Positions 6,790 through 46,214 of a stretch of DNA of 64,000 nt are shown here, piece after piece. Origin of the DNA: Acinetobacter terrestris (GTDB lineage Bacteria > Pseudomonadota > Gammaproteobacteria > Pseudomonadales > Moraxellaceae). Each line of letters begins with the position of its first letter. The stretch's first letter is position 1. The translations under genes were made by a program, and so were the position numbers. Where the stretch lies: the NCBI RefSeq assembly GCF_004331155.1, contig NZ_SJNZ01000005.1:62001-126000 (forward strand), read 5' to 3'. The notes under the pieces were generated by a model, which was not told the DNA's origin, did not search any database, and was given only the letters and a program-made list of their open reading frames with translations.

Positions 6790-7524
6790 TTAGCTCATGT
6801 ACAAACCGCCATTCACATGTAAAACAGTACCAGTGATGTAACTTGCCTTCTCGCTAGCCAGAAAGCTCACTGCATTCGCGATATCTTGTGGGTCACCTAA
6901 ACGGTTTAATGCCACTTGATCACTCATTTTCTTACGAATTTCTTCACTTAACTGTTCTGTCATTTCTGTTGCAATAAAACCTGGCGCAACAGCATTCACC
7001 GTAATTTGGCGACTACCCATTTCTTTTGCAAGGCTACGGCCAAATGCTTCTATCCCTGCTTTTGCAGCAGAATAGTTGGCTTGTCCCGGATTTGCAAAGT
7101 GGGCAACGACAGAACTGATATTAATAATTCGTCCAAAACGTGCTCGGGTCATGCCTTTTAAAACACGCTTAGATAGACGGTATACGGCTTTCAAATGAAT
7201 ATTGAGAATATCGTCCCAGTCATCTTCAGACATACGCAGTAACAAATTATCTTTGGTAATTCCAGCATTGTTGACCAGTGCAAGAACAGGACCATACTTT
7301 TGTTCAATATCTGTAACCAAGGCATCAATGGCGGTCGCATCACGCACATCAAGCACTGCACCAGCACCATTTTCAGCGAAGCTTGCAGATAATTTTTCTG
7401 CGCCTGCTTCAGACGTTGCGGTACCCACCACAAAATAACCGTCTAAAATTAATTGCTGAGCAATGGCAGCTCCAATCCCTCGGCTCGCACCTGTGACCAA
7501 TGCGACTTTACGTTCTTGTGTCAT
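6790..7524 (-). CDS. fabG: 3-oxoacyl-ACP reductase FabG
   Basis: A 244-residue short-chain dehydrogenase that reduces 3-oxoacyl-ACP with NADPH. Visible features are the TGASRGIG nucleotide-binding loop (residues 11-18), LVNNAGIT (83-90), the catalytic Ser137/138, Tyr151 and Lys155 (YSAAKAG), and the C-terminal TGTVLHVNGGLYM typical of FabG. Its ATG overlaps the fabD stop by four bases, so translation is coupled. Confidence 0.97.
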   Translation of the reverse strand: MTQERKVALVTGASRGIGAAIAQQLILDGYFVVGTATSEAGAEKLSASFAENGAGAVLDVRDATAIDALVTDIEQKYGPVLALVNNAGITKDNLLLRMSEDDWDDILNIHLKAVYRLSKRVLKGMTRARFGRIINISSVVAHFANPGQANYSAAKAGIEAFGRSLAKEMGSRQITVNAVAPGFIATEMTEQLSEEIRKKMSDQVALNRLGDPQDIANAVSFLASEKASYITGTVLHVNGGLYMS

Positions 7525-8507
7525 GCAATTTTCCCTTCCGCCACCAAAATGGCATTTAATGCATCCTCAAGACGACTCTTGCTGTCCAGTGGAAATGCTT
7601 TTTCGATATTTGGTAAACGCTTCGCAAGATTGGCAAGGACATTGCCCGGACCACATTCAACCATATATTGCACCCCTTGGTCTTGCAGGTATTGCATGGT
7701 CTTGGTCCATTGCACAGATTGATACAATTGTGCAGTCAATGCCTGACGTACGCCTGCCACATCCGTTGCGATTTCCGCGTTGACATTTTGTATTACAGGA
7801 AAGCCAGGCAGCTCAATGGCAGTTTGTTCCAAAGCTGCTGCAAACTTTTCAGCCGCAGGTTTCATCAGTGAACAATGTGACGGAACAGAGACCGGTAATG
7901 CAATCGCTTTACCTGACTGTTCTTTGGCCGCAGCCATCACCGCTTCTACAGGTGCTTTATCACCAGCAATGACTACTTGACCTTGAGCATTATAATTTGC
8001 AGCTTCAACCGAACCCAAACCTTGTGCATTTACCTGCTCGCAAAGTTGAATTACTTTAGCGTCATCTAGACCTAAAATAGCAGCCATTGCGCCCTGCCCT
8101 TGAGGAACAGCATCCTGCATGAGTTTGCCACGCAAATTCACAAGTTTTACTGCATCGCCAAGGCTCATTGCCCCTGCAGCAACCAGTGCGCTGTACTCAC
8201 CCAGTGAGTGACCTGCAAGATATTTTGGTGCAACACCACCCAATTCCAACCACACGCGCCATAAGGCGATACTTGCAGTCAGCAATACAGGTTGTGTAAA
8301 TTCTGTTTGGTTTAAGCCTTCACCACTTTGAGCAATGTGCCATAAATCAAAACCAATCGCTTCTGAAGCTTCAGCAAAAGTGTCGGTCACACCACTAAAC
8401 TGTTCTGCAAGTTCAGCCAACATGCCAACTTTTTGTGAACCTTGACCAGGAAAAACAAATGCAGTTTTTGTCGCTTGAGCGGCTTGATCGAGTCTTTTAG
8501 CAGACAT
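7521..8507 (-). CDS. fabD: Malonyl-CoA:ACP transacylase FabD
   Basis: A 328-residue acyltransferase that loads malonate onto ACP. The nucleophile is Ser101 in AGHSLGEYSAL, the oxyanion Gln lies in FVFPGQGSQKVGML, and the catalytic His is in SVPSHCSLM around residue 210. It is first in the fabD-fabG-acpP unit. The first 12 residues (SAKRLDQAAQATK) are a short extension before the core. plsX and fabH, which precede fabD in E. coli, are not here; a terminator and rpmF lie upstream instead. Confidence 0.97.
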   Translation of the reverse strand: MSAKRLDQAAQATKTAFVFPGQGSQKVGMLAELAEQFSGVTDTFAEASEAIGFDLWHIAQSGEGLNQTEFTQPVLLTASIALWRVWLELGGVAPKYLAGHSLGEYSALVAAGAMSLGDAVKLVNLRGKLMQDAVPQGQGAMAAILGLDDAKVIQLCEQVNAQGLGSVEAANYNAQGQVVIAGDKAPVEAVMAAAKEQSGKAIALPVSVPSHCSLMKPAAEKFAAALEQTAIELPGFPVIQNVNAEIATDVAGVRQALTAQLYQSVQWTKTMQYLQDQGVQYMVECGPGNVLANLAKRLPNIEKAFPLDSKSRLEDALNAILVAEGKIA

Positions 8508-9583: not shown

Positions 9584-10246
9584 ATGCATCAGTTGCAGCC
9601 GCAACCTGAAGTCACCACTTCATTACGGTTAACCACTCATTCAACCTCAAGTCCTGCAGTTTTTTTAGACCATGTGCAACTCTCACCTTGGGCTAATTTG
9701 CAAACAGAAGTTCAACCAGTAGATTGGCTTATATTACACTTTAATCACTGGTTTTCCCACTTAAATGTGATGCTTGTTCGTGGTGATTTTGAACCTGAAT
9801 ATTTTCCAGCGACTAAAGACCTCCCTGCCCGAATTCAGTTCGCACACGGTTTCTTTAATAGTGCATTGCATGAAATCAGCCATTGGAGCATTGCTGGCGA
9901 CAAAAGACGCTTATTGGCAGATTTAGGTTACTGGTATGCACCTGATGGCCGAACTGCCGAGCAACAGGCATTATTTGAACAGGTGGAAATTAAACCGCAA
10001 GCCATTGAATGGTTGTTTTCTCAAGCTTTCGGCAGAAAATTCCGGGTATCCTTGGATAATTTAACCGGCGATAGCGGTGATGGCGCGACATTTAAAGACA
10101 ATGTTTATGCTCAAGTTCAGCGATATTTTAATGGAGAAGCCAAACTTCCGCGTGATGCTGCGCACTTGATTCAGTGTATCTGTAGCTGCACAAGAAGTGG
10201 CAAAACATTACAAAGTGATGAGTTTCGACGTGAAATGTTAGGCTGA
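9584..10246 (+). CDS. epmC: EpmC, elongation factor P hydroxylase
   Basis: A 220-residue protein matching E. coli EpmC (YfcM), which hydroxylates the modified lysine of elongation factor P. Key stretches are RIQFAHGFFNSALHEISHW with an HExxH-like metal motif, LGYWYAPDGR, EVKPQAIEWLF and VSLDNLTGDSGD. The open frame starts with a TTG at 9545, but the ATG at 9584 gives a more usual beginning. Residues 1-45 are an extension compared with E. coli. No epmA, epmB or efp is in this window. Confidence 0.88.
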   Translation: MHQLQPQPEVTTSLRLTTHSTSSPAVFLDHVQLSPWANLQTEVQPVDWLILHFNHWFSHLNVMLVRGDFEPEYFPATKDLPARIQFAHGFFNSALHEISHWSIAGDKRRLLADLGYWYAPDGRTAEQQALFEQVEIKPQAIEWLFSQAFGRKFRVSLDNLTGDSGDGATFKDNVYAQVQRYFNGEAKLPRDAAHLIQCICSCTRSGKTLQSDEFRREMLG

Positions 10247-44679: not shown

Positions 44680-45132
44680 TTAAGCTTTAGGAGGACGTAA
44701 GATTTGTTGCCAGAAGCCGGTTAAATGCTGGGCTGAATAATCAAAATTGCGCTGTGGATGTTCTTGAATAGGGTCTAAATTGGGCAATTCTGCTGTTGCT
44801 GAATCCAGCCAGGTGGTCAAACTTTGACAATGTAACTGTACACAATCATTACAACTGAAATGCTGCGTCTGATCGGTCATGGTCTGATGACAATCTTGAT
44901 CATGCGCTACTTTTATATGTTCTAAAGAATGTTGCGTATCAGGTTCAACATTCACCGGATCATGGCAGCCAGACATCGCCGTCATTTCTGCGTTGTGATG
45001 CTGATCAACGCTCGCTGCATGCATCATGGGCTGATGCATGGATTTTACCGATGCCAAGGCAACACTACTCCACCCCATGGCAAAAACCATCAGGAACACA
45101 AACCAAAGCTGTTTGCGTAATGAAGTCAGCAA
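44680..45132 (-). CDS. Small Cys/His/Met-rich exported protein of the copper operon
   Basis: A 150-residue protein with a signal segment (about residues 8-28, FVFLMVFAMGWSSVALA) and a mature part rich in metal ligands: SMHQPMMHAA, DQHHNAEM, CHDPVN, DQDCHQTM and the cluster FSCNDCVQLHCQ. It resembles the small CopL/DUF2946-type proteins found before copA, though I cannot name it. It lies 45 bp upstream of copA and is first in the operon. A periplasmic copper chaperone or sensor is the likely role. Confidence 0.75.
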   Translation of the reverse strand: MLTSLRKQLWFVFLMVFAMGWSSVALASVKSMHQPMMHAASVDQHHNAEMTAMSGCHDPVNVEPDTQHSLEHIKVAHDQDCHQTMTDQTQHFSCNDCVQLHCQSLTTWLDSATAELPNLDPIQEHPQRNFDYSAQHLTGFWQQILRPPKA

Positions 45133-45358
45133 AGAATTATCCTTTAACCCGTCCAGAATAAAATATAAATCATATTATTTTGATTTAGATCTACAGCATA
45201 ACCAAGAACAAAGTTATATACAATTTTTTAAATTTATACTCAACAATTCATGGTTCGCTATTTTTATGAGCATTAAAACAATAAAGTTATTTTTTAAACA
45301 GGTTTATTTATAAGCATAGTTTAATAAACAACCATATTTTTGAATAGCTTAAGAGATC

Positions 45359-45385
45359 AAAAAAGGACTCATTTGAGTCCTTTTT
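45359..45385. terminator. Terminator between copper operon and rpe
   Basis: AAAAAAGGACTC-ATTT-GAGTCCTTTTT. On the minus strand it would end the rpe transcript, about 140 bp after the stop and beyond the DnaA-box array, which would then be transcribed. Confidence 0.85.
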
Positions 45386-45444
45386 ATACATTTAATGTCT
45401 AATTATTAAACTATTGTTCCATAATCGTTTATAAACTAATCAAG

Positions 45445-45501
45445 TTATCCATACAGTTATCTACACAGATATCCATATGGTTATCCATAAAGTTATCCAC
45501 A
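45445..45501 (+). repeat. Five DnaA-box-like 9-mers in direct orientation at 12-bp spacing
   Basis: 9-mers start at 45445, 45457, 45469, 45481 and 45493: TTATCCATA, TTATCTACA, ATATCCATA, TTATCCATA and TTATCCACA. The last is a perfect DnaA box (TTATNCACA), the second matches it fully, and the others differ at one or two positions. All five point the same way and are spaced exactly 12 bp. Confidence 0.85.
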
Positions 45502-45527
45502 ACTTAGGAACAATTAATTGTAGATTA

Positions 45528-46214
45528 TTAGATATTTACAGCGCCAACTTTTGCAAGTTCTGCACGCATTTCATTAATCACAGCTTGATAATCCGGTTTA
45601 CCGAAAATCGCCGAACCTGCAACAAACATGTCTGCACCAGCTTCTGCAATTTCACGAATATTGGCCGGTGTTACACCGCCATCTACTTCTAAACGGATGT
45701 CACGACCTGAAGCATCAATGATTTTGCGCGCTTGACGAAGTTTCTCTAAAGTCATTGGAATAAATTTTTGACCGCCAAAACCCGGGTTGACACTCATCAA
45801 TAACACTTGATCGACTTTATCCAAAACATAGTCCAGATAATGCAATGGTGTTGCCGGGTTAAAGACCAAACCGGCTTTCGCGCCACCAGCTTTAATCAAC
45901 TGTAAAGAACGGTCAATATGGTCGCTTGCTTCCGGGTGGAAGGTAATAATGTCTGCACCCGCTTCCAAGAAATCACCAATCATACGATCGACTGGCGAAA
46001 CCATCAAATGCACATCAATCGGTGCTTTAATCCCATATTTTTTTAATGCCTTACACACACCTGCACCAAATGTCAGGTTAGGCACGTAATGGTTATCCAT
46101 CACGTCAAAATGTACGACATCTGCACCAGCAGCGAGCACATTTTCGACTTCTTCACCTAAGCGGGCAAAGTCAGCAGATAAAATTGATGGCGCAATTAAA
46201 TATGGCTTGGACAT
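45528..46214 (-). CDS. rpe: Ribulose-phosphate 3-epimerase
   Basis: A 228-residue TIM-barrel enzyme of the pentose phosphate pathway. Motifs: [17 protein letters not shown] at the start, [18 protein letters not shown] (His and Asp metal ligands), [26 protein letters not shown] and [12 protein letters not shown]. Full length. Confidence 0.97.

Follow-up and report, generated by a model that had tools for sequence, protein, structure and literature searches.

A conserved array of DnaA-box-like sequences at 12-bp phase downstream of rpe in Acinetobacter

We found an array of five DnaA-box-like 9-mers next to rpe in a 64-kb stretch of Acinetobacter DNA (the whole stretch that was analyzed, referred to here as the window). 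The array, at 45445-45501, is a real and conserved element. We think that it is probably a non-coding chromosomal DnaA-binding locus that restrains initiation, like datA of E. coli or the DnaA-box clusters of B. subtilis.

The array and its setting

The five boxes are all on the + strand and start at 45445, 45457, 45469, 45481 and 45493, in exact 12-bp phase with 3-bp gaps, and together they occupy 57 bp. Box 1 (45445-45453, TTATCCATA), box 2 (45457-45465, TTATCTACA) and box 4 (45481-45489, again TTATCCATA) each have one mismatch to TTATNCACA, box 3 (45469-45477, ATATCCATA) has two, and box 5 (45493-45501, TTATCCACA) matches perfectly, giving a mismatch profile of 1, 1, 2, 1, 0 from box 1 to box 5. 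The same array was reported by Tandem Repeats Finder (period 12, 4.8 copies). It can be described as four box pairs, each 3 bp apart, placed end to end with a strong box at one end, and it has the arrangement of the E. coli double box (tandem boxes 2 or 3 bp apart). An earlier note on this DNA was partly confirmed. Its five same-orientation 9-mers every 12 bp with 3-bp gaps are borne out by the coordinates and by Tandem Repeats Finder, and the array is indeed away from dnaA, which is on another contig of this draft genome. The note erred in the number of perfect matches to TTATNCACA, counting two where only that at 45493 is perfect, and in the side of rpe on which the array lies.

The array is not a product of chance. 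Boxes were scored against what we take to be the consensus motifs for DnaA and IHF. Single boxes with at most one mismatch were not enriched (88 in the window, compared to a shuffle mean of 86.24). The phased run had a score of 22, compared to a best score of no more than 13 in 100 dinucleotide shuffles of the 64-kb window, and runs at other phases (10, 11, 13 and 14 bp) scored 10 or less in the window. Because the scans counted only exact 12-bp steps, the constancy of the spacing is partly built in.

The neighboring gene rpe, which is outside the element, encodes ribulose-phosphate 3-epimerase (TIGR01163; 45528-46214, - strand). The - strand orientation of rpe places the array past the 3' end of the gene, 26 bp from the stop codon, and not upstream as the earlier note had stated. 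On the other side of the array is a hairpin with A and T tracts (45359-45386) that folds with approximately -14.5 kcal/mol on either strand (z approximately -4.7; none of 200 shuffles was as good). Read by eye and from its fold, this hairpin is terminator-like on both strands; it was not among the sites listed by a terminator scan. In many relatives the position of the hairpin (45365-45380) appears to be kept in the printed alignments with both sides of the stem changed, as judged by eye. Beyond the hairpin, which stands between the array and the copper genes, there is a CopL-like gene (below the family cut-off) and then copA (TIGR01480, above the cut-off). A promoter scan listed nothing between 45100 and 45528.

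Conservation at rpe and the IHF-like flank

The earlier note had stated that absence of the repeats from related genomes would refute its reading; our comparison did not refute it. We found the array at the rpe flank in 81 of the 97 Acinetobacter genomes (of 99) in which the rpe region was matched; these and the other genome counts are raw and uncorrected for kinship. The array was absent from the other 16 flanks, one of which (G046) contains N. Of the 81 arrays, 80 are unbroken, 60 with five boxes and 20 with six; a genome in which one box is destroyed (G022) is still counted among the 81. Each array holds a perfect TTATCCACA in the run. The alignments of the 81 arrays and the counts of box bases were anchored on this box, so its invariance is partly built in.

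Conservation was highest in the boxes themselves. Pairwise identity was 0.856 for the boxes, 0.633 for the spacers, 0.585 for the 40 bp upstream, and 0.333 for the 20 bp after box 5, indicating that conservation ends abruptly on the rpe side. Upstream of box 1 there is a GTTTA block (45427-45431) with columns that are 95-99% conserved, except for one at 63%. We considered whether this block and a TAAAC block, also upstream, are further inverted DnaA boxes, and rejected this, as the blocks were inconsistent across relatives when compared by eye.

A degenerate pattern made from the array matched 81 stretches in GTDB-220 genomes. In 74 of the 80 loci examined (73 with a stricter cut-off), rpe was within 1.5 kb, and these loci include A. 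pittii, A. nosocomialis, A. calcoaceticus, A. junii and A. venetianus. Of the remaining six, one is a Moraxellaceae contig for which the sequence stops close to the array. The other five are from elsewhere: one beside dnaA (L199), two coding repeats (L166 and L212), one with the same repeat as L212 (L240), and L192.

An IHF-like site has a fixed place 26-38 bp before box 1. In the window it is at 45407-45419 on the - strand, with two mismatches to the consensus that we assumed. Across the 81 genomes, the site at this place had one mismatch or none in 43, two or fewer in 64, and at least four in 15. When the site was allowed to fall at any place in the 55 bp upstream, 49 of 81 genomes had one with no more than one mismatch, compared to a mean of 18.2 and a maximum of 28 in 100 rounds of shuffling. 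We prefer this stricter count to a looser one (63 of 81) that allows the site to overlap box 1. In the 55 bp downstream, such a site was found in 3 of 81, and the AT content was 0.632, compared to 0.745 upstream. These sequence matches provide moderate and uneven support for an IHF site across clades. The genome encodes both IHF subunits and a DnaA with a C-terminal DNA-binding domain.

Arrays at recB-recD and oriC, and distance from dnaA

The earlier note had suggested looking for other clusters at 12-bp phase and comparing them with oriC. There are three boxes at 12-bp phase upstream of dnaA in the genome's own oriC, and a three-box array at the same phase, outside the window, at the recB-recD junction (L002 1489-1521; C12:208980-209012). 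A three-box pattern was matched in 97 of 99 genomes, and a reversed control pattern gave three matches in total. The places of the matches were relisted for 29 genomes. Among the matches listed, we examined 20 loci, of which 17 were assigned to the recB-recD junction and two to the side of dnaA, leaving one (G032, L161).

A phased run of at least three boxes was found in the recB 3'-end regions of 95 of 98 genomes, with up to seven boxes in relatives. The recB regions of the other three (G001, G077 and G089) had no phased run of at least three boxes, and these genomes are without the rpe array too. The shuffles for these regions had a length of 900 bp; of the 98 regions themselves, 44 are at least 3 kb. 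All 81 genomes with the rpe array hold the recB-recD array, as do 13 of the 16 that lack the rpe array and the genome G012, for which there was no rpe match. Outside the genus we looked at the RecB loci of 26 Moraxellaceae genomes, leaving three further weak RecB-like loci (L320-L322) out of the scan. Seven boxes were present at the recB 3' end in four of four genomes of one sister genus, and no array was found at the RecB loci of the other 22, whether or not recD adjoins recB there.

The recB-recD array may overlap the start and the ribosome site of recD. The third base of the box was A in only 282 of 430 boxes there, which suggests that this stretch is under further constraints. There were more recB-recD boxes in genomes missing the rpe array (a mean of 5.3 in 13 genomes) than in the 81 rpe-array genomes together with G012 (a mean of 4.4 in 82), a difference that is suggestive only and uncorrected for kinship; one run of seven (G092) was entered as five boxes. 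One contig (G026 C14; L146 and L147) carries the recB-recD array twice in opposite orientations; the stated contamination of this genome is 9%. Elsewhere in the window's own genome, two boxes 3 bp apart (L015 1501-1521; C45:53854-53874) are 281 bp before an open reading frame of the ribonucleotide reductase alpha family, and nrdA of E. coli also has a DnaA box pair (PMC11317965).

Distances from dnaA were taken from 24 of 34 genomes, excluding those with dnaA and the arrays on different contigs or with an array missing, as well as G081 and G043; for G070, the recB-recD position alone was used. The rpe array was 0.193 genome lengths from dnaA (sd 0.017, n = 23), and the recB-recD array 0.102 (sd 0.009, n = 24). 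Both arrays were on the same arm in 15 of 23 chromosomes, and each array had one constant orientation relative to the fork in every chromosome. The coefficient of variation was 0.088 for the rpe array and 0.083 for the recB-recD array, compared to 0.094, 0.150 and 0.281 for three synthetase genes labeled from protein length. For hda, picked by eye, the mean distance was 0.300 (sd 0.043). Because control genes are nearly as steady, the distances of the arrays may only reflect inversions centered on the origin. It is possible, and we propose it tentatively, that in Acinetobacter DnaA filaments at recB-recD (near 0.10) and rpe (near 0.19) together control initiation. This would be a two-locus system of independent origin, with a layout like that of datA and DARS2, made of compact 12-bp-phase arrays that can be on either arm if their distance from the origin is kept.

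Candidate functions and comparison with known loci

If the array restrains initiation, the strong box 5 would be the site at which ATP-DnaA nucleates, and head-to-tail growth by one protomer per 12 bp would then cover the weaker boxes 4 to 1. The AT-rich DNA before box 1 would, in many species, also be bent by IHF. Copying of the locus by the fork would double its capacity and lower the amount of free ATP-DnaA by titration, and possibly also by stimulated ATP hydrolysis. Re-initiation would be delayed as ATP-DnaA gathered on the copied locus.

Among the roles that the earlier note had offered, this datA-like or titration locus is the best fit, whereas a DnaA-controlled promoter and a secondary origin were unsupported. 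It fits best because the array is conserved in the genus, its boxes have one orientation and the same 3-bp gaps as targets of DnaA in E. coli in vivo, and many species have an IHF-like flank. Further points in its favor are the score far above the shuffles, the phased boxes at the genome's own oriC, the recB-recD array, and the encoded DnaA and IHF. Against it are the 16 of 97 flanks that lack the array, the three of 98 genomes that lack the recB-recD array too, the fact that the IHF-like site is weak here and flanks the boxes, and a distance from dnaA that varies almost as much as the distance of a control gene. Transcripts of rpe would probably cross the array, and this also counts against a datA-like locus; in E. 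coli, both datA and DARS are impaired under strong forced transcription (PMC5010248).

ChIP-seq in E. coli showed DnaA bound at 16 regions, 15 of which contain close matches to box pairs with a gap of 2 or 3 bp, and adding a base between the boxes at purH strongly lowered DnaA binding (PMC11317965). The essential boxes of datA point one way and act with IHF (PMC5742627), and its box pair is TTGTAAACA-gag-TTATCCACA (PMC11317965). The rpe array resembles datA in being a non-coding, one-direction cluster of DnaA boxes off oriC, with an IHF-like site and a weak box 3 bp from TTATCCACA (PMC5742627, PMC11317965). It differs in having five boxes in 57 bp with the IHF-like site upstream of box 1, whereas the few boxes of datA are distributed along 183 bp and its IHF site lies between essential boxes. 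It also differs in its distance of 0.19 genome lengths from dnaA; datA is 0.10 from oriC by map positions (PMC5742627), a value close to that of the recB-recD array. The B. subtilis clusters, which have been shown only to titrate DnaA (PMC5010248), are likened to the array by description and not by sequence: like them, it is a DnaA-box cluster away from oriC and may act by titration alone (PMC5010248). The low-affinity arrays of E. coli oriC are similar in that their weak sites are arranged head-to-tail and a strong site anchors them (PMC4451416). Those sites are 2 bp apart, with R4 and C1 at 3 bp (PMC4451416), whereas the rpe array has 3-bp gaps and neither an unwinding element nor an adjoining dnaA.

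The array also shares features with DARS1 and DARS2 of E. coli, which are extra-origin loci with DnaA boxes, DARS2 having an IHF site and a similar relative distance (PMC5742627, PMC5010248). We regard it as very improbable that the array is a DARS-like locus that reactivates ADP-DnaA, even though it has an IHF-like flank and its distance of 0.193 from dnaA is near that of DARS2 (for a site equally distant in relative terms, PMC5010248 reports 0.21). In DARS cores box I is opposite to boxes II and III (PMC5742627), whereas all five boxes here are on one strand, as they are in the relatives' printed arrays, and we therefore rejected a DARS core. By the features examined, the array is a member of neither datA nor DARS. 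Its resemblance to the genome's own oriC array would suit a secondary or cryptic origin, which the earlier note had offered as a secondary replication-linked site, but we consider an origin extremely improbable. In an oriC, dnaA would adjoin the boxes and an unwinding element would be conserved on their 3' side; the sequence 3' of box 5, where that element would be expected, is not conserved, and no initiator or helicase gene is among the named neighbors. GC skew is negative in the 2-kb bins around the array, with no change of sign there (31 of 32 bins in the window are negative; the other, at 10001, is +0.010). We rejected a second origin on these grounds.

Two further explanations do not involve control of initiation. 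DnaA might bind the array to act on transcription, either serving as a roadblock or aid to termination where rpe ends or regulating the copper genes on the far side of the hairpin. The array does lie between the rpe stop codon and the terminator-like hairpin, copA is within 2.5 kb in 43 of the 50 loci with enough flank, and older work cited in PMC10950094 describes a block to transcription by DnaA bound near the asnC terminator. This explanation seems unlikely to us, as an intrinsic hairpin is already there, the region from 45100 to 45528 has no listed promoter, 7 of those 50 loci have the array but no nearby copA, and the recB-recD array has different neighbors. The DnaA-controlled promoter of the earlier note is unsupported, given the position of the array past the 3' end of rpe, the strong hairpin before the copper genes and, again, the lack of a listed promoter. 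A link to the copper genes may exist all the same, as copA is so often near. That the repeat instead reflects coding, or a DNA-binding protein other than DnaA, is in our judgment quite improbable. Repeats of 12 bp like TTATCCACA do encode VDK repeats in L166 and VDND repeats in L212, 77 of 81 genomes have one minus-strand frame that runs through the array without a stop, and the recB-recD array has its possible overlap with the recD start and its less constant third base. At rpe, however, the motif itself ensures the open frame, and 403 of 405 boxes have A as their third base, which on the opposite strand would be the wobble position of GAT; only one box would read GAC. We rejected a coding repeat at rpe for these two reasons; there is also no conserved start region on the rpe side, and the same phased boxes occur at oriC.

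Loci outside oriC that regulate DnaA are well described in E. coli and in a few other bacteria. A search by title and abstract, covering mostly open-access papers and not preprints, found no report of a DnaA-box cluster outside oriC in Acinetobacter; the oriC of A. calcoaceticus is mentioned in PMC4451416. Because two arrays are kept across most of the genus, small deletions could show which of titration and ATP hydrolysis sets the timing of initiation in bacteria other than the enterobacteria. The arrays further suggest that such loci can be found by sequence alone with the 3-bp pair rule of E. coli.

Two observations concern records from elsewhere. In a Desulfurobacterium MAG (L199, approximately 7503-7600), DnaA boxes form a long run just downstream of dnaA, most of it at 12-bp phase. 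The 12-bp repeats at approximately 5446-5502 in L166 and 1782-1838 in L212 are in unrelated records and are coding, and repeats of this kind are a trap for scans for DnaA-box arrays.
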